Shown: positions 7,404 through 29,916 of the stretch, piece by piece
Position numbering within the stretch: position 1 is the stretch's first letter
Layout of the letters: every line of letters begins with the position of its first letter
From: Gracilibacter sp. BRH_c7a
GTDB lineage: Bacteria > Bacillota > Desulfitobacteriia > Desulfitobacteriales > Syntrophobotulaceae
Reading direction: 5' to 3'
Assembly (NCBI GenBank): GCA_001516055.1
Contig: LOEZ01000069.1
Location: forward strand, 1 to 37,024
DNA: 37,024 bases
Notes under the pieces: model-generated
What the model saw: the letters and a program-made list of their open reading frames with translations, nothing else
Database searches by the model: none
What the model was told of the DNA's origin: nothing
Position numbers and translations under genes: made by a program

Positions 7404-8030
7404 ATGGCTAAGACAGCAAAAAATCACAAGCTAAAGAAAAATGAGCTTGTGGAAATTGCAGAAAAGTTGTTTTTAGAAAAAGGCTATGAAGAAACAACTG
7501 TTGATGATATTTTACATGCTTCAGGGTTATCCAAGGGGGGGTTTTATCATTATTTCAAGTCAAAGGATGAAGTATTGACAGAAAGCATCCGTAACTTTGC
7601 AAATAATCTGTTGAGTGAGCTTGAACCCCTTATTGAAGATAAAAAACTGAACGCTTTAGAGAAATTAAGACGATTTATGGAAATAAAGACTGCTTCCCAA
7701 AAGTCAAATAAGGAACTGTTAAACTATATGCGTATGCTAATGGAGTCTGATTCTACTTTCTATAAATTCACACTAACTATAACTCAGAAGTATGTTGAAC
7801 CCTTTGCCAGAATTATTGAGCAAGGTACGGAAGAAGGGACTTTTAAAGTTGAATTTCCACGTGAAACGGCAGATATTTTGTTAAGAGCGGTGACTTCATT
7901 TCCGCAAAGCATTTTTTATGGTGAATACATCCAGGATAAAAATAAAGCATTAAAGTATAAAGCTTCTCTGGAAGCAGTGATGGTCAGAACCCTAGGTATA
8001 GAGAATGAGGAAATTAAAATATACGGCTGA
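7404..8030 (+). CDS. TetR/AcrR-family transcriptional regulator
   Basis: A 208-residue protein. The N-terminal HTH is canonical: LVEIAEKLFLEKGYEETTVD, then DILHASGLSKGGFYHYFKSKDEVL. The C-terminal ligand-binding and dimerisation domain is alpha-helical and not assignable to a ligand. ATG 7404 is chosen because GGGAGG at 7390-7395 gives 8-nt spacing; the GTG at 7395 overlaps that site. The PEP-utilising enzyme gene follows 65 nt later, with a small AAGGGGG/TCCCCTT hairpin between them, and is probably co-transcribed and controlled by this repressor. Confidence 0.88.
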   Translation: MAKTAKNHKLKKNELVEIAEKLFLEKGYEETTVDDILHASGLSKGGFYHYFKSKDEVLTESIRNFANNLLSELEPLIEDKKLNALEKLRRFMEIKTASQKSNKELLNYMRMLMESDSTFYKFTLTITQKYVEPFARIIEQGTEEGTFKVEFPRETADILLRAVTSFPQSIFYGEYIQDKNKALKYKASLEAVMVRTLGIENEEIKIYG

Positions 8031-8095
8031 TGTCAGACTAAAGGGACCCGAAACTAAGGGGGTGTATCCCCTTACATTCAAGAGGAGTGTTAGAT

Positions 8096-10474
8096 ATGGC
8101 GAATACGGTAAAATACTTCAAAGAATTAACACCTGATCAACAAGCCACGGCGGGTGGAAAAGGCGGTATGTTGGCAAGAATGGTTCAGTCCGGCTATCCT
8201 GTACCGGAAGGTTTTGTTATTCTGCCGACAGCTTTTGAACAGGGGAAACTGAATGATGAGTCGTGGAAAGAGGTATTAGCTTCCTTGAACGCGATAAGAA
8301 AGAACAACGCACAAGCACTTTTTGCAATAAGATCTTCAGCCTTAAGTGAAGATTCAGCCTCAGCCTCTTTTGCCGGCGAGTTTGAAACATTTCTTAATGT
8401 AGAAACAGATGAGGCGATACTGGAAGCAATCTATGCGGTATACAGATCAAGAGAATCAGAGAGAGTAAAAGCCTACAGTTCGGCCCAAGGAATGGAACAG
8501 TCCCACCAGATCGCTGTAGTGATCCAATTGATGGTACAATCTGAAATATCAGGCGTGCTGTTTACAGCTGACCCCATCACAGGCAGCTATCAAAGCATGA
8601 TCGGTAACTATGTTCATGGTTTAGGAGAACAACTGGTATCAGGAGAAGTCAACGCCCATGATTTTAAGCTGACAAGACCGAAAGGGAAATATGAAGGACC
8701 GGCTGAATTTAAGAAATATGCCGCAAAGCTTTATCAATATGCAGCAAAGCTTGAAAAGGAGTTAGGCAAACCTCAGGATATCGAATGGGCTGTGGCAGAT
8801 GGGAAACTATACCTTCTGCAATCCAGGCCGATAACAACCTTGTCCCCAGGCAATCTGGATACCTATGAAATCAATTATTCTCTGGCGGGTGATGAACTTT
8901 GGACTAATACCAATGTCGCCGAGGCAATACCCGATGTCTATCCTCCGTTTTCCTGGAGTATAGCGAGGCAGTTAGATGACGCATTAAATTTTATTCCTGA
9001 ATACTATGTGTTTTCAGGCAATATCTGCGGAAGACCCTATATGAATATCAGCAAAAGAGTATCAGCAATTGCTTCTGTAACCGGCAAGGATGCCAGAAGT
9101 GCCCTAAAGTTGCTCGGGGATCTATACGGAGGGTTGCCTGAGGGAATGCAGATGCCTCTTTATCCCTTTTCCCGTTTAGGGGTCCTGAAGGTGATGCTGC
9201 CAATTGTAATTCGTATAGCCAAACAATCATTTAAAGCTTCCAAAAACTTGTCTAAATTCCTGCAAGAGACACCCGAGTGGTGCACAGAAATGCGGAAACG
9301 TATTGAAGAAGCAAAGAGCAAGGAAGAACTGCTGACCTTATGGAAGGGAAAACTGCAGCCCTATTTTTTTGAAGGGTTGAATGTAGGTTCTATTGCGGCA
9401 ATTAAACTGATGAACATTACTGCATTGGATAAAAAGCTTACAGAATTAGTAGGAACTGAAGATGCGGGCACCCTTCTTTCCAATCTCAGGAGAGGCTCCG
9501 GGCTGGCAAGTCTCGGACCGGTGATAGGGATTTCCAAGGTCATCAAAGGCGAAATGAGCAGGGAGGAATACCTTAGGCAGTATGGCCACAGAGGGCCTCA
9601 TGAATATGAGTTGTCCATACCTGCCCCCCTAGAAGACCTTGATTGGCTCGAAAAACAGGTAGAGGAATATAAAAAGTCAGATATCGATGTGGAAGGACTT
9701 TTAAAGAAGCAGCAGGCCCAATATGAGACTGCCGAAGTGCGGTTTAAAGATCGATATCCCAATAAAGTAAAATGGCTGGATAAGCAAATGAAAAAAGTGG
9801 CTGAAGCCGCCCAACTTAGAGAAGAAGCCCGTTCAGAATTTGTCAGGGTGTTCAGGGTGATTAGGGCTTTTGCCCTTAGAGCAGGTGAACTCCTTGGGGT
9901 GGGAGAAGATATATTCTTCCTTTATATTCATGAAGTGGAAGATCTTCTTTCCGGAGAGGCTTCAAAAGATAAGCATATTGATCCTGTTAAGTATATTCCC
10001 TCAAGAAAAGAGAACTTCGAGAAGTATAAAGCAATGCCGCCCTTCCCATCAATTATCAGGGGACGCTTCAACCCAGTGGAATGGGCTACGAACCCCAACA
10101 GAAGACTTGACTACTATGATGCTACTATCCCGCCTGCAGAATTATCTGACTCGCAAACCTTAAGCGGTTGTCCCGGAGCTGCAGGCAGGATAGAAGGAAC
10201 GGTACGTGTTTTGACAAGTCCGGAAGAGGGAGAAAAGCTTCAGGTGGGTGAAATCCTGGTCGCAGTGACTACCAATATCGGCTGGACACCCATCTTCCCG
10301 AAAGCCGCAGCCATCATTACCGATATAGGAGCACCGCTATCGCATGCCGCCATCGTCGCCAGGGAGCTTGGCATACCTGCCGTAGTGGGGTGCATGAATG
10401 CTACTTCAAGGTTAAAGACGGGAGATAGAGTTCTGGTGGACGGCGGACACGGGAAGGTGCAAATTTTAATATAA
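8096..10474 (+). CDS. PEP synthase-like / rifampicin phosphotransferase-like enzyme
   Basis: A 792-residue protein of the PEP-utilising enzyme superfamily. Residues 1-255 form the PPDK-type ATP-grasp domain (AGGKGGMLARM; AIRSSALSEDSASASFAGEF; GVLFTADPITG; the terminal QDIEWAVADGKLYLLQSRPI). A middle alpha-helical substrate region spans about 265-680. The C-terminal swivelling domain carries DIGAPLSHAAIVARELGIPA, in which His750 would be phosphorylated. The order ATP domain, unique middle, His domain is that of rifampicin phosphotransferase and unassigned paralogues (about 790-870 residues). It lacks the PEP/pyruvate TIM-barrel domain of PEP synthase. TetR control fits a detoxification role, but the substrate is unproven. 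Confidence 0.75.
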   Translation: MANTVKYFKELTPDQQATAGGKGGMLARMVQSGYPVPEGFVILPTAFEQGKLNDESWKEVLASLNAIRKNNAQALFAIRSSALSEDSASASFAGEFETFLNVETDEAILEAIYAVYRSRESERVKAYSSAQGMEQSHQIAVVIQLMVQSEISGVLFTADPITGSYQSMIGNYVHGLGEQLVSGEVNAHDFKLTRPKGKYEGPAEFKKYAAKLYQYAAKLEKELGKPQDIEWAVADGKLYLLQSRPITTLSPGNLDTYEINYSLAGDELWTNTNVAEAIPDVYPPFSWSIARQLDDALNFIPEYYVFSGNICGRPYMNISKRVSAIASVTGKDARSALKLLGDLYGGLPEGMQMPLYPFSRLGVLKVMLPIVIRIAKQSFKASKNLSKFLQETPEWCTEMRKRIEEAKSKEELLTLWKGKLQPYFFEGLNVGSIAAIKLMNITALDKKLTELVGTEDAGTLLSNLRRGSGLASLGPVIGISKVIKGEMSREEYLRQYGHRGPHEYELSIPAPLEDLDWLEKQVEEYKKSDIDVEGLLKKQQAQYETAEVRFKDRYPNKVKWLDKQMKKVAEAAQLREEARSEFVRVFRVIRAFALRAGELLGVGEDIFFLYIHEVEDLLSGEASKDKHIDPVKYIPSRKENFEKYKAMPPFPSIIRGRFNPVEWATNPNRRLDYYDATIPPAELSDSQTLSGCPGAAGRIEGTVRVLTSPEEGEKLQVGEILVAVTTNIGWTPIFPKAAAIITDIGAPLSHAAIVARELGIPAVVGCMNATSRLKTGDRVLVDGGHGKVQILI

Positions 10475-16613: not shown

Positions 16614-17778
16614 AGTGTACTTCCAAATAATTAAGAACAATATCCCCATTCTGATGATTTACATTACTGTCTTTATAGGTATATCGATGGCGTTTTCAAC
16701 ATCGGGACAGAGCAGTGACATTGCCGAATTTACCGAAAGCAGAGCACCCGTCGCTTTTATCAACGATGATAATGATTCCGCGTTAATTAAAGGACTTATG
16801 GAATATGCCGGTGAGAAGTCTACTATTGTCGAAGTGGAGGATAATCAGGAAGCTTTGCAGGACGCCCTGTTTTTCCGTGAAGTTGAGTATATTATCAGAA
16901 TTCCGGCAGGTTTTACCGAAAGATTTATGAATGGTGAGGCTACGGCTCTTGAGAAAACCAGCATACCGAATTCCACTTCGGGAATATATATGGAGATGAT
17001 TCTCAACAATTTTCTGAACAGCGCAAACCACTACATCAAATATGTAAATGGTATCACTCAGGAAGAGCTTGTGGCCAAGGTAACAACTGATCTCACCAAG
17101 GAGACCGAAGTAGTCATAAGCGATTATGAAAGCGGGGTTGCCAACGGCAGCGGCATGGCCTTCTTCTTTAACTTTGCAGCATATCCGGTAATCATCATTC
17201 TTATCTTCGGCATTACATCTTTCATGTTGGTGTTTAATGATACCTTGAAAAAGCAGAGAACTCTATGTTCCCCGATTAGTCACAGCAGACTGAGTATGGA
17301 AACGCTTTTGGCCAATCTGTCATTTACCGTTATAGTCTGGGCAATCATGTTAACAGCATCTTTTGTGATGCTCGGCAAGGAACTCCTATCTATTAACGGT
17401 CTATTATGGGCCATAAACCTTTTTATCGTTGCTATTGTTGGGCTCAGTATCAGTTTCCTTATTGGAAGCCTTATCAAAAACAAAAACGCCCAGTCAGCTG
17501 TAGCCAATACGTTTACCCTCGGCTTAGCATTCCTGTCGGGCTGTTTTGTACCGCAGTCCCTATTAAACGAAGCAGTCCTTTCAGTCGGAAGATTCCTGCC
17601 AACCTACTGGTATGTACGGGCCAGCGATGAGATCGGGAAATTGAAATCCTTCGGCTGGGAGTCGCTCCAGCCTGTCATATTCAGCTACCTGATCCAGATT
17701 GGTTTTGCCGCGGCTCTTATTTGCATAGCACTTGTGATCACGCGGCAGGTACGCAGCGGGTCAGTAAGGCAGGCGTAA
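16600..17778 (+). CDS. ABC-2 type permease (LnrM/LnrN-like), second copy
   Basis: A 392-residue permease with the same layout as its neighbour: an N-terminal helix (NIPILMIYITVFIGISMAFS), an external domain with VAFINDDNDSALIKGLMEYA, then FNFAAYPVIIILIFGITSFM and four further helices. The PxxFLPTYWYVRA-like segment near residue 345 (GRFLPTYWYVRASDEIGKL) is conserved in this exporter group. The GAGGAGG site lies inside the preceding gene, and the start overlaps it by 14 nt, which implies coupled translation. Confidence 0.85.
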   Translation: MQVFKVYFQIIKNNIPILMIYITVFIGISMAFSTSGQSSDIAEFTESRAPVAFINDDNDSALIKGLMEYAGEKSTIVEVEDNQEALQDALFFREVEYIIRIPAGFTERFMNGEATALEKTSIPNSTSGIYMEMILNNFLNSANHYIKYVNGITQEELVAKVTTDLTKETEVVISDYESGVANGSGMAFFFNFAAYPVIIILIFGITSFMLVFNDTLKKQRTLCSPISHSRLSMETLLANLSFTVIVWAIMLTASFVMLGKELLSINGLLWAINLFIVAIVGLSISFLIGSLIKNKNAQSAVANTFTLGLAFLSGCFVPQSLLNEAVLSVGRFLPTYWYVRASDEIGKLKSFGWESLQPVIFSYLIQIGFAAALICIALVITRQVRSGSVRQA

Positions 17779-17807
17779 GCGTAATTAAGAGATATAATAT
17801 TTTACAG

Positions 17808-17861
17808 TTGACAAACACTCCCTACAAGTGTAGTCTGTTTATAGATTACACTTGTAGGGAG
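17808..17861 (+). promoter_or_regulatory. BlaI-type promoter/operator with 15-bp inverted arms
   Basis: TTGACA (17808-17813) and a weak -10, TAGTCT (17831-17836, 17-bp spacer), lie in a perfect inverted repeat: CTCCCTACAAGTGTA (17818-17832) and TACACTTGTAGGGAG (17847-17861), with a 14-bp centre. Each arm itself contains a TACA-N2-TGTA dyad (TACAAGTGTA and TACACTTGTA), the usual BlaI/MecI half-palindrome design, so two repressor dimers may bind. The RNA could also form a long hairpin before the start codon. Confidence 0.75.
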
Positions 17862-17873
17862 ATGTTTTTAATA

Positions 17874-18251
17874 ATGACAGATAAAAGCTGCCGTATTTCT
17901 GATGCCGAATGGCTGGTAATGAAAGTTCTTTGGCAGGAGAATCCCTTAACTGCATCTTTGATTACGGACCATTTACAACCGGAAATCGGGTGGAGTCCCA
18001 AAACAATTCAAACTTTAATTGCCCGCCTTGTTAAAAAAGGAGCTTTAGCGGTAAATAAAGAGGCTGGTTTAAACCAATACTATCCGTTGTTATCCCAAGA
18101 AGAATGCATGGTTGAAGAGACCAAAACCTTTCTTCGAAAAGTCTACAATGGTTCTTTGCATGGACTTATCGCCAATTTTGTTAACAATGAAAGCTTATCA
18201 CCGAAAGAAATCGAAGAACTCAAACGCTTGCTCGATGAGAAACTTCAATAG
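17874..18251 (+). CDS. BlaI/MecI-family transcriptional repressor
   Basis: A 125-residue winged-helix repressor: ISDAEWLVMKVLWQENPLTA, then GWSPKTIQTLIARLVKKGAL (recognition helix) and LNQYYPLLSQEECMVEETKT, followed by a helical dimerisation tail. ATG 17874 is chosen, 12 nt after the AGGGAG of the operator arm; an ATG at 17862 abuts that site. The frame continues upstream to 17721, but that part precedes the promoter. The M56 sensor gene follows by 19 nt, as in blaI-blaR1 pairs. In this family induction is by proteolysis of the repressor. Confidence 0.9.
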   Translation: MTDKSCRISDAEWLVMKVLWQENPLTASLITDHLQPEIGWSPKTIQTLIARLVKKGALAVNKEAGLNQYYPLLSQEECMVEETKTFLRKVYNGSLHGLIANFVNNESLSPKEIEELKRLLDEKLQ

Positions 18252-18270
18252 GGAAGGGAAGTGAAAATAA

Positions 18271-20283
18271 GTGAACCTAACCGAACTCTTTCACTCCATA
18301 GTCACGTTGTCCCTGCTGGGGAGTATTACAGCCGCCGGGTTATTCTTAATCAAACTGCTGCTCAGGCGGAAACTCAGTGCGAATTGGCATTACGCCATTT
18401 GGTTTATATTGATCTTACGGCTTGTTATTCCATTTACACCGTCCGCTCCATTTAATGTCCTTAATTTCATTCCGCATTACCAGCAGATGATGGATTCCGC
18501 ATCAATATCCATGCCTGATTGGCAAGGGACAAGCTCAAACAACCTCCAACCAGGGAACACCTCAAATCTGACGGGCGAAATGCTGTCTGGAAACGAAAAG
18601 GGCGGCCAGCCACCCTCTGCACCGGTAGAAGAATGGTTTTACTGGGATACTGCCGCTCTCATCTGGCTGGGTGGGGTACTGGCGATTTCCTTGTATGTTT
18701 TGTTAGTCAACGGAATCCTTCTACTGAAAACGAGAAAACTTCCGGTTTGTGTTTCATCGGATATTATAAGTATCTTGCAGGCATGCAAAGCAGATTTACA
18801 GGTTCATTCCGAAGTTTCTGTTGTCTATGATGATTCTCCTAAATCACCGGCACTTTTTGGTTTATTCCGCCCTAAGATCGTTATTTCACCGGATATAGTC
18901 GAGCGGTTATCACCCGAAGAACTGCGTCATATTTTTTTGCATGAACTGAGTCATCTAAAGAGGCATGACCTGCAGGTTAGTGTCCTGGTCTTGGCAATCC
19001 GGATTATTTATTGGTTCAACCCTTTCATCTGGTTCGCACTTTACCAAATGAAACGGGATTGTGAAATAGCCTGTGATGCTACAGTTCTGTCCGCTTTGAA
19101 ACCGCAAGATCACAAAAAATATGGACAAACCATTATCCGCCTCATGCAATTGCTTTCCGAACCTCACTGGGTTCTGGGTACGCTTGGTTTTGTCAGTAAA
19201 TTCAATGCCAGGAGGATAATAATGATTTCTAAATTTAAGAAGACAACCCTAAAATGGGCTGTTGTCGCTTTAGTCTTAACCCTGGTTGTTGGGTGTTCAA
19301 GCCTGAGCAATCCCATTAACCCGCCAAGCAACGGTCAAAATCAACAAGACACCAATGCGCCAAATTTACCTTCATTACCTCCCGACTCCTCAAATGTCTA
19401 CCAAAATACCCAGTACGGTTTCAGCTTTTCCTTGCCGGAGAGCTGGCAGGGTTATTCGATCGTAGAGAGTCAATGGGAGGGTTTAAGTCTTGGGAGCCAA
19501 ACCGGGGAACCAATTGTGGAGACCGGCCCGCTGGTTTCGATCAGAGACCCCCGCTGGACTTCGCAAACCCCGCGGCAGGATATTCCCATCATGGTGTTTA
19601 CGCTTGCAGAATGGAATTCTCTGCAACAAGGAGTATTCCATATCGGTGCCGCCCCGATCGGCCCAAGCGAACTGGGGCGTAACAATACCTACGTCTTTGC
19701 CCTGCCCGCACGTTACAACTACGCTTTCCCGGTGGGATATGAAGAGGTGGAAACAATTCTGGCAGGCAAACCGCTGCTCACCACGCAAGTGTCCCAACAA
19801 CACCCCGACGCCACGGAATCCCTATTGTTGAATATGATGGCAGCGGGAGAACAGGGTAAAGTTCTTTTCTGTGATTTCCCGGTGAAAACAACATCCCTCC
19901 AAGAGGTTGAGAAGGCATGGGGGAAAGCGGATCAAACCGACTATGTGGCAGCAGCTAAAGGCCGTTATGCGACCTATTCGAGCCATAATGTTGTGTTTGG
20001 GATCAACAAGGGCGACCAAATATTTGAAGTCCGCTCTTCCGATAGCCGCCTGAAAGGCATAACTCTTGCGGAAGCCAAAACAGTATTAGGAACACCGGCC
20101 TATAACGCCGAAAGCAACGGTCAGGAAATCATCGGCTATACGACCAATTCGGAATTCAAAGTTGAAATGGTCTTCCCTCAGCCGACAAGCGAAGATCCCA
20201 ATCCGGTAATCGATCATTATAATGTACTTTATCCGTCCGGGACAGTTAATTCTATGGCGGACGACCCAGGCAGGCAGTGGTAA
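18271..20283 (+). CDS. BlaR1/MecR1-like M56 peptidase with a C-terminal DUF4309-like region
   Basis: A 670-residue protein with a GTG start at 18271, supported by GGGAAGGG. The N-terminal half has about four membrane helices and the M56 zinc peptidase site HELSHLKRHD (His224, Glu225, His228), then DCEIACDATVL as the usual third-ligand region. Residues about 318-345 are KKTTLKWAVVALVLTLVVGC, a membrane segment ending in a lipobox-like Cys. After a Pro/Asn-rich linker, about 380-510 is an unassigned extracellular domain and about 515-650 resembles DUF4309/YjgB. No penicillin-binding domain (SxxK/KTG) is seen, so the signal is probably not a beta-lactam. Confidence 0.82.
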   Translation: MNLTELFHSIVTLSLLGSITAAGLFLIKLLLRRKLSANWHYAIWFILILRLVIPFTPSAPFNVLNFIPHYQQMMDSASISMPDWQGTSSNNLQPGNTSNLTGEMLSGNEKGGQPPSAPVEEWFYWDTAALIWLGGVLAISLYVLLVNGILLLKTRKLPVCVSSDIISILQACKADLQVHSEVSVVYDDSPKSPALFGLFRPKIVISPDIVERLSPEELRHIFLHELSHLKRHDLQVSVLVLAIRIIYWFNPFIWFALYQMKRDCEIACDATVLSALKPQDHKKYGQTIIRLMQLLSEPHWVLGTLGFVSKFNARRIIMISKFKKTTLKWAVVALVLTLVVGCSSLSNPINPPSNGQNQQDTNAPNLPSLPPDSSNVYQNTQYGFSFSLPESWQGYSIVESQWEGLSLGSQTGEPIVETGPLVSIRDPRWTSQTPRQDIPIMVFTLAEWNSLQQGVFHIGAAPIGPSELGRNNTYVFALPARYNYAFPVGYEEVETILAGKPLLTTQVSQQHPDATESLLLNMMAAGEQGKVLFCDFPVKTTSLQEVEKAWGKADQTDYVAAAKGRYATYSSHNVVFGINKGDQIFEVRSSDSRLKGITLAEAKTVLGTPAYNAESNGQEIIGYTTNSEFKVEMVFPQPTSEDPNPVIDHYNVLYPSGTVNSMADDPGRQW

Positions 20284-20543: not shown

Positions 20544-20834
20544 ATGAAAATCAGGGAAGATATTCGACCGATTTCTTATATTAAGGCCAATGCAGCCGAG
20601 ATACTGGATCAAGTGCATGAGTCCCACAGGCCTGTTTATGTAACCCAAAATGGTGAAGCCAAAGCGGTTTTATTGGATACCGAATCCTACGAAAAAATGA
20701 AAAACGCACTGGGGCTGATGAAATTGCTGACACAAGGGGAAAGAGACATCGTTGACGGAAACGTTCTGTCTCAGGATGACTTTTTTCTGAATATGGATCA
20801 TCAGTTTCTTGATCAGGATAATCGGAAGTCATGA
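20544..20834 (+). CDS. Type II antitoxin, Phd/YefM family
   Basis: A 96-residue protein: the N-terminal DNA-binding and dimerisation domain reads ISYIKANAAEILDQVHESHR, then PVYVTQNGEAKAVLLDTESY, the Phd/YefM signature. The acidic C-terminal tail (ERDIVDGNVLSQDDFFLNMD) would wrap the toxin. GGCGGTGAT precedes ATG 20544. The stop overlaps the toxin start by 4 nt (ATGA), so translation is coupled. It probably represses its own promoter and neutralises the neighbouring toxin. Confidence 0.9.
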   Translation: MKIREDIRPISYIKANAAEILDQVHESHRPVYVTQNGEAKAVLLDTESYEKMKNALGLMKLLTQGERDIVDGNVLSQDDFFLNMDHQFLDQDNRKS

Positions 20835-21157
20835 GTAAGCAATATCAAATTTTTTGGACCAAAACTGCGCAACAGGATTTAAAAAAAATTATTGAATATA
20901 TATCCATCGACAGTACAAATAATGCAGGAAGAATCTATCAAGACATAAAGAATAAATCGGGAAATTTATATCAAATGCCCTTTCAAGGAAGAATAGTGCC
21001 TGAACTAAGATATTTCGGAATTTTGATATATCGAGAATTAATCATGCCTCCTTGGCGGCTGATCTATAAGATTGAAGATAATAAAGTTTGGATACTGGCA
21101 GTGATTGACGAAAGAAGAAATGTTGAGGACATATTGCTCAACAGGTTTATCGAATGA
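20831..21157 (+). CDS. Type II toxin, RelE/ParE superfamily
   Basis: A 108-residue basic protein: IFWTKTAQQDLKKIIEYISI, FQGRIVPELRYFGILIYREL, then PWRLIYKIEDNKVWILAVID and ERRNVEDILLNR. The order of beta strands and the final DERRNVEDIL motif (typically H/D-x-R-R in this fold) fit ParE/RelE toxins. Whether it cleaves mRNA on the ribosome (RelE) or acts on gyrase (ParE) cannot be decided from the sequence. The overlap with the Phd-type antitoxin supports a functional pair. Confidence 0.88.
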   Translation: MSKQYQIFWTKTAQQDLKKIIEYISIDSTNNAGRIYQDIKNKSGNLYQMPFQGRIVPELRYFGILIYRELIMPPWRLIYKIEDNKVWILAVIDERRNVEDILLNRFIE

Positions 21158-21612: not shown

Positions 21613-22263
21613 TCAATCGGCTGTCTTTTTTACTTGTATTTTGCGATTCACGATTCGTATTAATTCTTCATCACAAAGCTCATTGATTAGCCGAGCAACC
21701 GTCACTCTATTGGCACTAATAATTTTAGCCATATCATCCTGGGAATACTGGAATCTTAAGCTGTACCAATTATCTTCCAGAGCGGACGCTGCATCTGCTG
21801 ATGCACAAAACAGATTATAGAGCCTGATCTTACAACAATCCAAAGAAAGACTTTCTATAACTTTCATAAGTGTCATGATAGTCTTGGACATGTACTTTAA
21901 TAAGCCGTCTTTTAATAGATTTGAAGAGGCAATTATACGATTATCCATTTTATATAAAACTGTTGGTGTCTCAGTAACAATCGACATGTTTGGCATTTGG
22001 AGTATTAAAAGTGAAGGTACGGCACCGAATATCGAACCTTCCTCTTGGATGAGTAATATTTTTTCCTTGCCTTCATAATTGGTTGTACAAAATCTTACCC
22101 GGCCTTTATCGATATAATAAATCGAATCGACAGCTTCGTAAGGGTGGATAAGAATAACATGAGCATCAGATGTAATTTTAATGCCATATCTATAGATTTC
22201 TTCTTTGAGTTCCAAACATTGAGATGATAAGAATGGAGTGCCGTATGATTGGTTGTCAGACAT
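21613..22263 (-). CDS. CRP/FNR-family regulator, CprK/RdhK-like
   Basis: A 216-residue protein: an N-terminal cyclic-nucleotide-binding-type beta barrel (about 35-125: HPYEAVDSIYYIDKGRVRFC, then GKEKILLIQEEGSIFGAVPS), a long dimerisation helix, and a C-terminal winged HTH (YSQDDMAKIISANRVTVARL). In this position, divergent from rdhA, the family (CprK of Desulfitobacterium) senses the organohalide and activates transcription. The overall similarity to CprK is modest and the HTH recognition residues differ (SANRVTVARL versus TGVHHVTVSRV), so its DNA site may not be the classical dehalobox. AAAGGATG precedes ATG 22263. Confidence 0.8.
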   Translation of the reverse strand: MSDNQSYGTPFLSSQCLELKEEIYRYGIKITSDAHVILIHPYEAVDSIYYIDKGRVRFCTTNYEGKEKILLIQEEGSIFGAVPSLLILQMPNMSIVTETPTVLYKMDNRIIASSNLLKDGLLKYMSKTIMTLMKVIESLSLDCCKIRLYNLFCASADAASALEDNWYSLRFQYSQDDMAKIISANRVTVARLINELCDEELIRIVNRKIQVKKTAD

Positions 22264-22341
22264 CGATAGGAATCATCCTTTCTTAATCTGAGTGCTTTCC
22301 TGACTCAAATTCATTATATCATACCCATTTCAACACACTGG

Positions 22342-22357
22342 TGTAGCATTTGCTACA
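22342..22357. promoter_or_regulatory. Palindrome upstream of rdhA, candidate regulator site
   Basis: TGTAGCA-TT-TGCTACA is a perfect palindrome between the divergent regulator and rdhA. TATCCT at 22381-22386 could be the rdhA -10 box; the palindrome centre would then lie about 43 nt upstream of the start site, near the -41.5 position of class II CRP/FNR activation. The classical dehalobox (TTAAT-N4-ATTAA) was not found here. ACAC-TG-GTGT lies just upstream at 22334-22343. Confidence 0.5.
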
Positions 22358-22439
22358 AAGACGCAAATGTAATACTCATTTATCCTATTTGTTTGTTAAA
22401 TTAGTATCAAGAATACAAACAGTAGGAGGTGGGGTGAGT

Positions 22440-23729
22440 ATGGATGAGAAGAAAACTCCCGTACAAAAACCAATTTCGAGGAGAAATCTACTTAAAGGTG
22501 TAGGTGCCTTAGGGGCAATAGCTACAGCGGCATCAATATCTAAGATACCCGGATTAAGCGGGTCTGACGGAATGGCGTATGCCGTTACTGAAGCAGAAAC
22601 AATACCGGCTGAAATCTCAAGTGACTACAAAAGAATGGATCAGAAATATACAACGTTTATGAGAGCGGGCTGGGATCCGGAGATTGCACCCCTGTTAAAA
22701 ACATTTCTTGCCAAGCGGCATGGACAGATACCGTATGAGGAAGGACCAGGATTTACAGATATTGATTTCGCTTTATCCGGTGCTGCCTGGTCTATTGAAG
22801 AAGATGCGGGCGGACCGGGAGTTGGTGCCGGCGTAGGCAATATGGGCCTTTATAGCTGGGAAGGCCATATTAATCCTAAGCAGAAGAAATTTGATTCACC
22901 CGAACAAGCTTCAGAGATCGTAAAAAAAGCAACGTCTTTTCTTGGAGCAGATTTAGTGGGTATCGCACCGTATGATGAGAGATGGGTTTATACACATTCC
23001 TATCATCCGCTTACGCAAAAGGGAGGACCAATTGAGTTTCCTTTTGAGCCGAAAAGCGTTATCGTGATGGCGATTGAAATGGATTATGATGCTTACCGTA
23101 CTTCCCCCTCTCTGATTGCAAGTGCCGGTACGGCAACAGGTTATGGAGAAATGATTACCACAGCCCATAAGGTTGCTACATTCTGCAGACAGTTAGGATA
23201 TCATGCCGTTCCCTGCGGCAATGATACGGCAATGAGTATCCCCTTGGCTATTCAAGCCGGTTTAGGTGAAATCAGCAGAATGGGATTACTAATTACACCG
23301 AAGTATGGACCCAGGGTAAGGTTATGCAAAGTATATACGGATCTTCCTTTAAAAGAAGATAAGCCGATCACTTTTGGTGTCGTAGACTTTTGCAAAGTAT
23401 GTATGAAGTGTGCAGATAACTGTCCAAGCGACGCTATATCGAAAGATCAGGAGCCTAGTTTCAATACGGTAAGTATCTCGAATAATCCGGGAGTAAAGAA
23501 ATGGGTGATTAAACCGGAGAATTGCTTTAAGTACTGGGCCGAACATATTGATTGTTGTAACTGTGTAGCCTGTTGTCCCTATAACAAGATTGAAGAATGG
23601 CATCATGACTTATCCAAACTGGCAACCCAAACTCCTGCCAAACCGATCTTAAGATACTTTGACGAACTGTTTGGCTACGGTAAAACATTCAACACAGACT
23701 ATATGACAGAATGGTGGAACAATAAATAA
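22440..23729 (+). CDS. rdhA: Reductive dehalogenase catalytic subunit, TAT-exported
   Basis: A 429-residue cobamide and iron-sulfur enzyme that removes halogen from an organohalide as the terminal step of respiration. The twin-arginine signal is SRRNLLKGVGALGAIATAAS (about residues 13-32). The core follows PceA closely: FLGADLVGIAPYDERWVY, FPFEPKSVIVMAIEMDYDA, PCGNDTAMSIPLAIQAGLGE and LLITPKYGPRVRLCKVYTDL. Two 4Fe-4S motifs follow: CKVCMKCADNCPSD, then C-FKYWAEHID-C-CN-C-VAC-CP. It is about 120 residues shorter than Desulfitobacterium PceA (551), mostly because the insertion between the YDERW and KPKSVIV motifs is missing. AGGAGGT supports ATG 22440 over GTG 22434. The substrate is unknown. 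Confidence 0.93.
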   Translation: MDEKKTPVQKPISRRNLLKGVGALGAIATAASISKIPGLSGSDGMAYAVTEAETIPAEISSDYKRMDQKYTTFMRAGWDPEIAPLLKTFLAKRHGQIPYEEGPGFTDIDFALSGAAWSIEEDAGGPGVGAGVGNMGLYSWEGHINPKQKKFDSPEQASEIVKKATSFLGADLVGIAPYDERWVYTHSYHPLTQKGGPIEFPFEPKSVIVMAIEMDYDAYRTSPSLIASAGTATGYGEMITTAHKVATFCRQLGYHAVPCGNDTAMSIPLAIQAGLGEISRMGLLITPKYGPRVRLCKVYTDLPLKEDKPITFGVVDFCKVCMKCADNCPSDAISKDQEPSFNTVSISNNPGVKKWVIKPENCFKYWAEHIDCCNCVACCPYNKIEEWHHDLSKLATQTPAKPILRYFDELFGYGKTFNTDYMTEWWNNK

Positions 23730-23756
23730 TAATCAAACGAAAATGGGGTGATCTTT

Positions 23757-24080
23757 ATGAGTCTTATCTGGCTTATACTCGGTGCAGCTACACTAGGAGC
23801 GATATGGGGATTAGTTTATTGGAACACTAAAAGAAAACAAAGATTTACAAAGCCTCAGTTCAGTGGCTTGCTGCTCTCTATCTTTGTAGGGCTATTTGCT
23901 GTTGCCTGGTCAATCAGCAGTATCTTGGAAGATGAAATCCAAGCGGCTGCGATGGGGATTATGATTTTTGGGGGAACAGCAGTGATCTTATTTTTCCTTA
24001 GCTTGAGACTGGAACAATTCAAAAGCTCTATTTCAAAAAGCAGAGGTATAAAAATCGCAGAAAACAATGAGATCAGTTGA
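23757..24080 (+). CDS. rdhB: Reductive dehalogenase membrane anchor
   Basis: A 107-residue protein with three membrane helices (LIWLILGAATLGAIWGLVYW; FSGLLLSIFVGLFAVAWSIS; AMGIMIFGGTAVILFFLSLR). The loop between helices 2 and 3 carries EDEIQAAAMG, which fits the conserved ExExxAxxxG motif of PceB-type anchors that contacts RdhA. It holds the exported catalytic subunit at the outer membrane face. ATG 23757 is chosen because GGGGTG at 23745-23750 is the ribosome-binding site; a GTG at 23748 lies inside it. It follows rdhA by 27 nt and is co-transcribed. Confidence 0.9.
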   Translation: MSLIWLILGAATLGAIWGLVYWNTKRKQRFTKPQFSGLLLSIFVGLFAVAWSISSILEDEIQAAAMGIMIFGGTAVILFFLSLRLEQFKSSISKSRGIKIAENNEIS

Positions 24081-24154
24081 TAATGAAAGGTTGTTACAAC
24101 TAAAAGTAGAGAGAACAAAGGAATTAATTTTTATACGAAGTAAGGTAAAGATCA

Positions 24155-25372
24155 ATGACAGAGAGAAAAGGGAAAAACACAATTACCTTGGTTGTAGCCT
24201 TGTTTGCGAGGCTAACACTAATTATCGCTTTATTTGCAAGTTGGGTTATGCCGGAAGATGATTTACAGCCATTGTTGAATAAAGTCCTCCCTGAAGCGCA
24301 ATCTTTCAATAAGATTGCGTCTTCCCCCCTTACTTATGAGGGGATAGTGGATGGTGAGGAAGGACTGGGACAGATCATAGGGTATGTAGTGTTCGATGAG
24401 GCTAACGCTTATGGTGGCCCGATTAAGATCGCTGCCGGAATTGATGTTGAAGGGAAGATAATTGGAACTATTATAGCTAAGCACAATGATACGCCCTCCT
24501 TCATCGAAATAATAATGAATCACAAGTATTTGCAGCAGTTCATTGGCAAGAGTATCTCTGATCCTATTACTATCGAACAGGATATTGACGGTATAACCGG
24601 AGCAACGTTCACTAGCAGAGGAATAGCTAAGGCCATATCCCAAGGCAGTCATGCTGTTGCCAGAAACCAGTTCGGATTGGATATTCAGGATGAGGTCGCA
24701 CCATTTCAATTTGGGGTTAAAGAGATTTCAGTGATTTCTTTAATGATTTTGATGCTGATCGGTGTAGTGCTGCAATACAAAAAACTGCGCTGGGTAACCC
24801 TCATAGGCAGCTTGGTGTTTATTGGTTTCCAATTTAATGTGCCGATTTCTTTAGGTAACGTCGCTGCACTTTTAATGGGGTATTTTCCTTCCCCACGCGA
24901 GAATTTGGTTTGGTATCTACTCATGGTGGGTATACCGATAATAACATTTTTCGTCAGCAGGAATCTTTATTGTTTTTGGCTCTGTCCCTTTGGTGCACTG
25001 CAAGAGATATTAGCTAAGATAGGCGGAGGAAGCTTCAAGTGTTGCAACAAATCTATAGAGACTAAAGCCACCAAGATCAAATATATTCTAGTATATATTG
25101 CACTATTAGGAGCCCTCTTGCTTAGATCGCCTGGACTCGCTGGGTATGAGCCTTTTGCTACTTTGTTCGGTTTACAGGGATTTGGTATTCAATGGATTAT
25201 CTTACCGATAGTTATCTTTACCTCATTGTTTATCAACAGGTTTTGGTGCAGGTACTTTTGCCCGGGTTTTGTAATCAATGAATTCATTTTGAAGATAAGA
25301 AAACTGGTGAATACGATAATAGGCAAATTGACCAAGTCGCCCTCAACAAATCGTGTGAATTATTTCAAATAA
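24155..25372 (+). CDS. rdhC: RdhC/PceC-like membrane flavoprotein
   Basis: A 405-residue NosR-family protein: one N-terminal helix, an extracytoplasmic FMN-binding domain (about 50-180), then five helices. DGITGATFTS contains the S/TGAT motif whose Thr (here Thr151) carries covalent FMN in PceC. Two membrane-associated Cys pairs, CFWLCPFGAL and CRYFCPGFV, match the CxxxCP motifs of the family, but there are no ferredoxin-type clusters at the C-terminus. In PceABCT-type loci it is thought to pass quinol electrons toward RdhA. The ribosome-binding site (AAGGT) is weak. A 74-nt gap separates it from rdhB. Confidence 0.88.
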   Translation: MTERKGKNTITLVVALFARLTLIIALFASWVMPEDDLQPLLNKVLPEAQSFNKIASSPLTYEGIVDGEEGLGQIIGYVVFDEANAYGGPIKIAAGIDVEGKIIGTIIAKHNDTPSFIEIIMNHKYLQQFIGKSISDPITIEQDIDGITGATFTSRGIAKAISQGSHAVARNQFGLDIQDEVAPFQFGVKEISVISLMILMLIGVVLQYKKLRWVTLIGSLVFIGFQFNVPISLGNVAALLMGYFPSPRENLVWYLLMVGIPIITFFVSRNLYCFWLCPFGALQEILAKIGGGSFKCCNKSIETKATKIKYILVYIALLGALLLRSPGLAGYEPFATLFGLQGFGIQWIILPIVIFTSLFINRFWCRYFCPGFVINEFILKIRKLVNTIIGKLTKSPSTNRVNYFK

Positions 25373-25401
25373 GATAATGTCATGTCAATATTGTATAGAT
25401 T

Positions 25402-25602
25402 ATGCCAAAAAATATAGTTGCACAGGGAAAGAATGCTGCCAGATTTAAAGATGTATTCCTGGAGCTGAATTCAAGATTGGTTGAGGGTTTTTCCGAATCA
25501 GAAAAAGATGTCTTAAGAATTATGCTGGAAAGAATGTATAGAAATACGGCCATGAACGAAAACAATTTTGTACTGGATGCTTTGAATTTCCTGGAAGTAT
25601 AG
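25402..25602 (+). pseudogene. C-terminal remnant of a MarR-family regulator
   Basis: The 66-residue frame has GKNAARFKDVFLELNSRLVE, then GFSESEKDVLRIMLERMYRN. This is the wing-to-C-terminal dimerisation segment of MarR proteins (pattern LTxxGxxxxxxxxxxxxxxNxxLxxGFSEEExxxLxxLLxRLxxN). The winged HTH that should precede it is absent, since rdhC ends only 30 nt upstream. There is no ribosome-binding site. MarR-type regulators control many rdhA genes in Dehalococcoides, so this may be a relict regulator of the following rdhA-like gene. A short expressed dimerisation peptide cannot be excluded. Confidence 0.6.
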
Positions 25603-25623
25603 AGTGCAGCGAGGAGGAATATT

Positions 25624-26571
25624 ATGAAACTGTACAAATTGATGAGAAAACCGCCATTTTTCTTAAGCGCCTCACATTGGATGACAAAGAAGGATCAACC
25701 GGTAAAAAGCGGCCCGAATTCCAGACAAGCGGTTATTATTCCATTGTTGCTTATTCAGTATGGAAGTATCAGTGCGAAACTCAAAGCGATGACAACGCTT
25801 AAGAATTATTTAGTATCTTCTATCAAAGGAATGCGTATTAGTGCCAAGGGTCTCCAGCATAATCCCCACTCCGGAAAGCGAATAATCGATGAAAAAACCT
25901 TAAAAGAGATGGAGGACTATGCAAAACAACTGGGTATTTCCAATATCGGTTATACAAAAGTAAATCCGAACTATGTATTTAAGGACTTTGAGATACTATA
26001 TGATAAGGCCATCATGTTCACAATGGAGATGAATAAACAACTGATTGCCACGAGTCCCAGTTTAGAATCTAACAAGGAGATCTTTAGGACTTACGCAGGG
26101 CTTGGTACTGCGGTCAATAAAATTGCTGATTTTTTAAGAGAAAATGGATTCAATTGTCATCCCAGCCCTGCGATCGGCGGTGATATCAATACCGTGCCCA
26201 CAGCTCAAGATGCCAATCTCGGGTGTGTTGGCAAGAATGGCATTTTGGTAACGCCGGAGTTTGGACCATGTGTCAGACTGGCAGGTATTTTTGTAGATAT
26301 CGATAATTTGCCTATTTCGGATCAAAAGGATCATAGGTGGATTGCCGACTTCTGTAAAACATGCAATCGCTGCGTCAAGTCATGCCCGGCAGGTGCGATC
26401 TATCAAGAACCCAAGGTGTTGAAAGATGGTACGCATGTATATATAGATCTGGAAAAATGTGCACCGCCATTCTCGGATGGTTGTTCGACGTGTATAAGTT
26501 CTTGCGTGTTTACCTCCGGTCAGTACGATAGAATAAAAAGTGCATTCAAATCAAAGACAGAGGCTTATTGA
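25624..26571 (+). CDS. RdhA-like iron-sulfur protein without a TAT signal
   Basis: A 315-residue protein homologous to the C-terminal two-thirds of RdhA: EDYAKQLGISNIGYTKVNPN, YAGLGTAVNKIADFLRENGF, then GKNGILVTPEFGPCVRLAGI. It carries a 4Fe-4S motif, CKTCNRCVKSCPAG, and a second cysteine set, C-APPFSDG-C-ST-C-ISS-C-V, that lacks the usual CP. There is no twin-arginine leader and no partner rdhB. In place of GPRxR in the neighbouring RdhA it has GPCVR. A strong GAGGAGG site precedes ATG 25624. It may be a cytoplasmic reductase, between QueG and RdhA in features. Its substrate and cobamide binding are unproven. Confidence 0.75.
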   Translation: MKLYKLMRKPPFFLSASHWMTKKDQPVKSGPNSRQAVIIPLLLIQYGSISAKLKAMTTLKNYLVSSIKGMRISAKGLQHNPHSGKRIIDEKTLKEMEDYAKQLGISNIGYTKVNPNYVFKDFEILYDKAIMFTMEMNKQLIATSPSLESNKEIFRTYAGLGTAVNKIADFLRENGFNCHPSPAIGGDINTVPTAQDANLGCVGKNGILVTPEFGPCVRLAGIFVDIDNLPISDQKDHRWIADFCKTCNRCVKSCPAGAIYQEPKVLKDGTHVYIDLEKCAPPFSDGCSTCISSCVFTSGQYDRIKSAFKSKTEAY

Positions 26572-26601: not shown

Positions 26602-26640
26602 ACACAATCTCTCATTTTAGCATGAGGGATTGTGTTTTTT
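26602..26640 (+). terminator. Rho-independent terminator of the rdh locus
   Basis: ACACAATCTCTCAT (26602-26615) pairs with ATGAGGGATTGTGT (26622-26635), with one T-G wobble and a 6-nt loop, followed by a T-run to 26640. It lies 30 nt after the stop of the second rdhA-like gene. Confidence 0.85.
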
Positions 26641-28980: not shown

Positions 28981-29916
28981 ATGAGTGAAAAAAGAGACAA
29001 ATGGGATCTTTCATTGAAAAATATTGTTACACCCCTGATCTTTCTGGGAATATTCTGGGGGCTGGCAATAGTATTAACGATTACATCCGGTATAGTTTTT
29101 TATTTGTTTAACTTTGGCTACATAGGAACTTCGATAGCAATTGGTATTTTTCTGATTCAGGCTTTACCCAAAAAGCATAAAGCATGGGGAAGAAGAACCT
29201 CTCAAATCCTCGTCGGATGCTATATGTTGTTTTTTCTCGGATTGTTCAACAGAGAAAACATGCAGATCGAAGGTTTCTTCATGTTGCTCTTAGCAGGCGT
29301 GTTTGCGGCAGCGACCATGCATTATGTAATTGCCAAAATCGTTGGCCCGCTGATTTTTGGACGGGCGTGGTGCAGTTATACCTGCTGGACCGCCATGATA
29401 CTGGATTTACTGCCATATAAAAAACCTCAGAATAAGCGAATCAGATATCTTGGATTAATCAGATACCTATATTTCTTCCTATCATTAGGATTGGTACTAT
29501 TTATTTGGTATGTACTGAAAAATCCTGTGGAACCTCAATCAACGACTGAGCTTTACTGGCTGATTATCGGGAATATTCTATATTACATCTTAGGAATAAT
29601 TTTGGCATTCAGGTTAAAAGACAACAGAGCTTTTTGCAAATATATATGCCCTATTCCTGTATTGCAAAAGGTTACATCAAGATTTTCCCTGCTTAAGATG
29701 AAGATTGATCCCAATAAATGCATTGACTGTGGTAAATGTGAAAAGGTATGCCCAATGGATATCAAGTTACTGGAGTTTAAGAATAATAATCAGCGAATAT
29801 TATCAACGGAGTGCATCTGGTGCAGTACCTGCACCTATGAATGTCCAGAGAATGCTGTTACTTCGACAATTGGGTTTGATGTCGGAATGAAAGACAGAGT
29901 ATATTATCGATTATAA
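28981..29916 (+). CDS. NapH/YccM-like membrane polyferredoxin
   Basis: A 311-residue protein with about six membrane helices and two CxxxC pairs at the membrane edge (CSYTCWTAM; CKYICPIPV), then a C-terminal ferredoxin domain with two 4Fe-4S motifs (CIDCGKCEKVCPMD; CIWCSTCTYECPEN). Proteins of this type take electrons from the quinol pool and pass them to periplasmic or cytoplasmic reductases. Being 2.4 kb downstream of the rdh operon, with the C-terminal clusters that this RdhC lacks, it is a candidate electron donor to the rdh system. GGGAGATAAGCAG precedes ATG 28981. A dyad, ATTAACGTTAAT, at 28884-28895 lies in its promoter region. Confidence 0.82.
   Translation: MSEKRDKWDLSLKNIVTPLIFLGIFWGLAIVLTITSGIVFYLFNFGYIGTSIAIGIFLIQALPKKHKAWGRRTSQILVGCYMLFFLGLFNRENMQIEGFFMLLLAGVFAAATMHYVIAKIVGPLIFGRAWCSYTCWTAMILDLLPYKKPQNKRIRYLGLIRYLYFFLSLGLVLFIWYVLKNPVEPQSTTELYWLIIGNILYYILGIILAFRLKDNRAFCKYICPIPVLQKVTSRFSLLKMKIDPNKCIDCGKCEKVCPMDIKLLEFKNNNQRILSTECIWCSTCTYECPENAVTSTIGFDVGMKDRVYYRL

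Follow-up and report, generated by a model that had tools for sequence, protein, structure and literature searches.

Does a gene that lies directly behind a reductive dehalogenase operon belong to that operon, and what kind of enzyme does it encode? The question is raised by a locus of Gracilibacter sp. BRH_c7a at positions 21613-26571 of the window, as we call the whole stretch of 37,024 nucleotides that was analyzed (contig LOEZ01000069.1, or C69, of the 4.1-Mb source genome G000). Across this locus, a divergent CRP/FNR-type regulator gene, rdhA, rdhB and rdhC are followed by a gene for a 315-residue RdhA-like protein. A first-pass annotation had described a complete rdhA-rdhB-rdhC set and, behind it, a 315-residue RdhA-like gene with neither a twin-arginine translocation (TAT) leader nor an anchor of its own, and the reading frames and gene order bear this out. 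We favor, with moderate confidence, the explanation that this protein belongs to a clade sister to RdhA and acts on its own in the cytoplasm, as a reductase dependent on a cobamide and two [4Fe-4S] clusters and probably a dehalogenase or detoxifying reductase, and that its marR gene was truncated beside rdhABC.

A compact cytoplasmic relative of RdhA

Sequence, hidden Markov model (HMM) scores, tree position and a structure model characterize the product of the gene at 25624-26571 (+ strand) as a compact cytoplasmic RdhA-sister protein. AGGAGG precedes the start at 25624, and the genes of two other genomes that are 73-76% identical over the full length share the N-terminus MKLYK. Scanning the protein for a twin-arginine motif and a membrane span found neither; hydropathy over 19 residues peaks at 1.37, compared to 2.33 in RdhB. 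It has neither the TAT leader nor the RdhB partner that mark a respiratory RdhA, and the sole rdhB at the locus accompanies the neighboring rdhA, whose product is only about 36% identical to the 315-residue protein over about 136 residues. Against family models the protein scored 64.8 bits for TIGR02486 (curated cut-off 160.35) and 40.9 bits for the QueG model TIGR00276 (cut-off 200); Pfam PF13486 (Dehalogenase) had no match in it and was absent among the families matched by 29 members of its family at 1e-3. The best solved relatives were 8q4h (2.8e-23) and 4uqu (6.6e-16, PceA-type), followed by weaker matches to QueG (5d08, 5.2e-9) and then NpRdhA (4ras, 2.3e-7).

Alignment to PceA and 78 relatives located the residues expected of a dehalogenase active site. 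Tyr157 (codon 26092-26094, + strand) is the equivalent of catalytic Tyr246 of PceA, and Arg218 (codon 26275-26277, + strand), within GPCVR, is the equivalent of catalytic Arg305. Two [4Fe-4S] motifs, with cysteines 244/247/250/254 and 279/287/290/294, are encoded at 26353-26505 (+ strand). The protein has both the eight-cysteine motif pair and the Tyr plus Arg/Lys pair expected of RdhA. No family row of the tree alignment (37 rows) departs from the Tyr, the Arg or any of the eight cysteines, whereas the QueG rows keep the Tyr and lack the Arg. The first-pass annotation had singled out GPCVR in place of the neighbor's GPRVR and a missing CP in the second Fe-S motif; these differences are real but minor, as neither the Arg nor any of the eight cysteines is lost, and CP, replaced here by CV, is present in 17 of 29 relatives. 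More distinctive is the third active-site column, corresponding to Asn272 of PceA and position 185 of the 315-residue protein, which is Asn in most RdhA and Asp in QueG and NpRdhA. Family members mostly carry Gly here, including Gly185, and a few have Asn, Met or Ser; in the alignment this column genuinely sets the family apart from RdhA as well as from QueG.

An AlphaFold2 model, built with a 29-row alignment and compared to solved structures by VIA-align, had a mean predicted local distance difference test (pLDDT) score of 91.6. The model matched NpRdhA (Z 24.5, 3.1 A, 280 residues) and PceA (Z 24.4, 274 residues), compared to Z 15.9 over 191 residues for QueG, a match that covers only residues 88-301. 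Residues before 90 were unmatched by sequence searches, but the RdhA match of the model begins at about residue 30, which indicates that this segment is also RdhA-like in fold. The predicted fold of RdhA, including the region ahead of the cobamide module, extends over 274-280 of the 315 residues. As modeled, the protein represents a compact RdhA core rather than a QueG. The earlier view that its motifs lie between QueG and RdhA is roughly true for the tree, but by predicted fold the protein is plainly closer to RdhA.

Phylogenetic position and distribution of the family

We built a tree of 79 sequences (LG+F+R4, 295 columns) rooted on QueG. The RdhA proteins, including respiratory, catabolic and other TAT-less forms, formed one clade (99/100), and the family formed a separate clade with a Shimodaira-Hasegawa approximate likelihood ratio test (SH-aLRT) value of 70.8 and an ultrafast bootstrap (UFBoot) value of 87. 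With a mixture model on a 207-column core, support was 96 for RdhA, 89 for the family and 100 for QueG. The 315-residue protein lay outside the clade of characterized RdhA in the best trees, but the approximately unbiased (AU) test did not reject its placement with RdhA (p 0.37). The phylogeny that the first-pass annotation had called for thus yielded a moderately supported, distinct clade adjacent to RdhA and apart from the QueG rows, but the conserved linkage to rdh genes that it had asked for alongside was absent. Its suggestion of a cytoplasmic RdhA-like enzyme agrees with the fold, the eight cysteines and the Tyr/Arg pair, and with this moderately supported place beside RdhA.

A second TAT-less cytoplasmic group of about 350 residues, from Clostridia (L098, L099, L101 and L102), was observed inside the RdhA clade. 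This group is sister to L100, whose N-terminus resembles a membrane helix, and scores 119-139 bits against TIGR02486, below the cut-off.

The number of relatives found depended on the search. A single-sequence scan of the genome collection found no relatives, and one genome of the same order holds a full-length orthologue (74%), to which a phylum-wide draw added two genomes. An alignment-based scan covering 84,980 species genomes returned 34 loci, all of them family members except one classical RdhA (L081), and a few family loci are broken or partial (L056, L082). Members are about 300-370 residues long, align end to end, and occur in Clostridia, Anaerolineae (46-49% identical to the 315-residue protein), Thorarchaeota, Hodarchaeota/Heimdallarchaeota, Actinobacteria and one deltaproteobacterium. 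A search for plasmid-borne members found none, the Pfam and NCBIfam libraries scanned hold no model specific to the family, and we found no paper describing the clade by its TetR/MarR linkage or tree position, although the literature search was limited to open-access papers and is weak evidence of absence. The family is apparently a widespread, unnamed sister branch of the reductive dehalogenases.

Two Anaerolineae loci (L051, 1756-3773; L052, 2865-4870) each carry two family paralogues of about 350 and 317 residues that overlap by four bases, as if forming a single translational unit, and a heterodimer is possible. In Bacillota MES5 (L056), a close orthologue at 8001-8806 is broken, with an open frame of 109 residues and a match in several segments, and adjoins an intact divergent paralogue at 8865-9779.

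Neighboring regulators and the junction with rdhABC

All genes of the family loci were clustered to find shared neighbors, and the only type common across unrelated genomes was a TetR or MarR regulator. Of 35 family loci, 20 (19 by HMM plus the overlapping MarR of L040) have such a regulator at a distance of up to 1.5 kb, versus 8 of 285 more distant genes of the same loci (Fisher p 6e-10, two neighbors counted per locus). MarR regulators have also been reported for some rdhA genes (PMC12090745). The cytoplasmic location and the adjacent TetR/MarR regulators suggest that the family serves inducible detoxification or catabolism and not respiration.

Linkage to rdhABC, in contrast, was found only in the window. 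Homologues of rdhB and rdhC were sought in all family loci and none occurred outside it; no family gene stands behind rdhC in the rdhABC modules that we read in three further loci (L135-L137). RdhA above the TIGR02486 cut-off is encoded in 7 of 24 member genomes and missing from the other 17, and the family is absent from Dehalobacter-type genomes with many rdhABC modules.

The junction itself offers a probable explanation for this single case. Between the rdhC stop at 25372 and the 315-residue gene lies a 66-codon frame (25402-25602, + strand), overlooked by the first-pass annotation, that has no Pfam or NCBIfam match and is recognized only by an HMM of the family's own MarR neighbors, at 24.3 bits compared to 13.0 for the best of 2000 shuffles. 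It is a marR remnant comprising the C-terminal part only; no upstream frame contains the missing N-terminal part, and the best other MarR match in the source genome is only 29% identical. Because this remnant separates rdhC from the gene, the junction is probably a recent rearrangement, most simply explained if the event that attached a regulator-plus-enzyme cassette behind rdhABC also cut the regulator. The 315-residue gene is under strong purifying selection, with nonsynonymous differences (pN) of 0.14-0.17 and synonymous differences (pS) above 0.8 (0.14 and 0.84 versus L050), although this record may largely have accumulated before the junction formed.

A pattern scan found no terminator-like site on the + strand between rdhC and the 315-residue gene, so read-through from rdhABC is possible and the gene may be read together with the operon. 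Directly 3' of the gene, the scan marked a terminator-like hairpin of 14 pairs plus a T-run (26602-26635, + strand), in a region where the count of terminator-like sites is no higher than expected from shuffles.

Proposed mechanism and alternative functions

A working scheme can be inferred for the cofactors that the 315-residue protein carries, the source of its electrons, the transfer of the proton, the compound that it reduces, and the regulation and co-transcription of its gene. Going by its class, low-potential electrons, probably from ferredoxin or flavodoxin, would pass through two [4Fe-4S] clusters to a base-off cobamide (cob(I)alamin). Tyr157, tuned by Arg218, would donate a proton, as proposed for RdhA, and a halide or other group would leave from a substrate that is probably a small hydrophobic compound within the cell. 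In most relatives the adjacent TetR or MarR regulator would control the enzyme, and in the source genome the rearrangement that truncated marR would have placed the gene directly behind rdhABC.

Several observations weigh against this scheme. Support for family monophyly is moderate (UFBoot 87, SH-aLRT 71-89). The deep branching order is not settled either, because neither a grouping of the window protein and both its orthologues with RdhA (p 0.37) nor one with QueG (p 0.42) was rejected in AU tests. Gly185 makes the active site identical to that of no characterized relative, and the Asgard loci have no TetR/MarR neighbor. A broader proposal, which we make tentatively and consider less likely than not, is that the family constitutes a separate class of cytoplasmic cobamide/Fe-S reductases that is widespread, is coupled to regulators and stands as sister to every characterized reductive dehalogenase. 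It would have an active site of its own (Tyr-Gly-Arg in most members) and perhaps a substrate other than an organohalide, and would be present in bacteria lacking classical RdhA and in Asgard archaea. It is unlikely, though worth keeping in view, that the 315-residue protein is a cobamide-dependent reductase for a non-halogenated bond (epoxide, C-O, N-O or activated alkene) in a TetR/MarR-induced detoxification or catabolic step. QueG shows that the fold is capable of epoxide reduction (PMC4646009), the third active-site residue of most members is unlike that of RdhA and QueG, and members are present in genomes without RdhA above the cut-off, but the Tyr/Arg pair is of the dehalogenase type and the fold match is to RdhA.

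The remaining explanations fit the evidence less well than a stand-alone cytoplasmic reductase. We consider improbable the earlier idea of a dedicated helper that feeds electrons to the neighboring RdhA or assists with cobamide insertion while that RdhA is still in the cytoplasm, ahead of TAT export. The gene does come right after rdhC in the same orientation, no terminator-like site was found on that strand in between, and the model weakly matches the B12-handling protein MMACHC/CblC (Z about 8), but the linkage was seen only once, other family loci have no rdhB or rdhC, most member genomes have no RdhA above the cut-off, rdhABC-rich genomes do without the family, the marR gene at the junction is truncated, and the protein keeps its catalytic Tyr/Arg pair. 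Replacement of QueG, or another role in tRNA modification, has very little probability. The two proteins share a superfamily, and no QueG match at 1e-20 was found in the source genome and one other member genome (G423), but both encode QueH (216 and 220 bits), and QueG and a family member occur together in three other member genomes. The QueH of the source genome and these three genomes make a queuosine role unlikely. The Asp of QueG is Gly in the 315-residue protein, the dehalogenase Arg is present, and the QueG fold match is restricted as described above; on its active-site residues and the QueH of the source genome, we rejected a QueG role. Least probable of all is a non-functional, decaying duplicate or fragment of rdhA. 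The protein is short, without leader or anchor, and adjoins rdhA, but its full-length orthologues in two genomes, its low and partial identity to the neighbor and a pN far below pS speak against decay, and the orthologues together with selection refute a truncated copy of rdhA. The orthologues and the 46-49% identity to Anaerolineae members also speak against a recent copy of the neighboring rdhA.

The CRP-rdhABC module and surrounding genes

The CRP-rdhABC part of the locus is an ordinary respiratory set. Its regulator, a CRP/FNR-type protein resembling RdhK/CprK (PF00027 and PF13545 above cut-off), is encoded at 21613-22263 on the - strand, divergent from rdhA; the first-pass annotation began its range at this gene without mentioning it. 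Because a palindromic CRP/FNR-type box (TTRATNNNNATYAA) was no more frequent in the window than expected by chance, control by the CRP protein is not demonstrable. The rdhA gene (22440-23729, + strand) encodes a TAT-exported respiratory-type reductive dehalogenase with the leader motif SRRNLLK, which scored 246.7 bits against TIGR02486 (cut-off 160), matched the solved structure 8q4h at 5.8e-88 and was sister to the L027 RdhA in the tree. Its start is likely the ATG at 22440, behind AGGAGG, rather than the TTG at 22350 where the open reading frame (ORF) opens. The membrane anchor gene rdhB (23757-24080, + strand; ORF open from GTG 23748) was assigned by identity to related rdhB genes and by the hydropathy given above, and rdhC (24155-25372, + strand) encodes a NosR/RnfG-like membrane protein with flavin mononucleotide-binding and Fe-S domains (PF04205 and PF12801 above cut-off). 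The same arrangement of regulator and rdhABC recurs in related genomes, with identities of 47-54% for RdhA, 32-37% for rdhB and about 60-62% for rdhC. From gene content and kinship, we infer that the relatives of the source genome are Dehalobacter- and Desulfosporosinus-like Firmicutes.

Elsewhere in the source genome, contigs C74 and C4 each carry two RdhA genes or fragments, and another lies on C53. On C4 (L047, 3-2137), an RdhA fragment at the contig start is followed by a divergent TAT RdhA with Cys in the catalytic Tyr column of the alignment. In another genome (L134, G051:C30, 4970-7099), a 709-residue ORF without a TAT motif contains two tandem RdhA-like matches, 43-49% identical to the window RdhA, and has a 690-residue relative in a further genome (L019, G004); both are apparent fused double RdhA proteins.

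Upstream of the rdh locus, we read from the sequence a Phd/YefM-RelE-like toxin-antitoxin pair (20544-21157), preceded by a BlaI-BlaR1-like pair (17721-20283). Downstream, a NapH-like membrane polyferredoxin (28981-29916) lies behind PadR, DUF2812 and DUF5655/DUF1801/DUF1905 genes and weakly matches an HgcAB-like fusion model (51 bits, cut-off 285).

Relation to known enzymes and significance

The 315-residue enzyme represents a sister group of RdhA that is cytoplasmic and coupled to regulators. It shares with respiratory RdhA (PceA of Sulfurospirillum multivorans, 4uqu, and the 8q4h reductive dehalogenase complex) the fold from about residue 30 on, both Fe-S motifs and the Tyr/Arg pair, but it has no TAT leader or rdhB partner, is about 100-150 residues shorter and carries Gly for Asn272. 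Like the catabolic NpRdhA and BhbA it is cytoplasmic, without TAT, and shares the core fold (Z 24.5), whereas the plasmid-borne catabolic RdhA proteins that we examined exceed 1000 residues, have Lys and Asp at two positions and fall inside the RdhA clade. QueG has a cobamide-binding module, a two-cluster ferredoxin and the conserved Tyr in common with it, but has no Arg, Asp instead of Gly and its own C-terminal domain. Other predicted RdhA-type proteins without a TAT leader are the Asgard reductive dehalogenases reported with PF13486 (PMC6737245) and the hybrid reductive dehalogenases reported with three N-terminal membrane helices (PMC6797604). In one Thorarchaeota genome (G479), a protein inside the RdhA clade (L096) coexists with a family member (L060).

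By 2015, the solved structures of reductases combining base-off B12 with iron-sulfur clusters comprised two reductive dehalogenases and QueG (PMC4646009). A third, non-exported clade that keeps the dehalogenase Tyr/Arg pair intact and has regulators of its own would broaden the chemistry known for these reductases. The clade is easily overlooked because its TIGR02486 scores (65 bits for the window member, 60-90 bits for most listed relatives) fall below the usual screening cut-offs, and it would raise the count of potentially dehalogenating organisms among Clostridia, Anaerolineae and Asgard archaea. The locus is also a reminder that a gene adjoining rdhABC need not be part of rdhABC.

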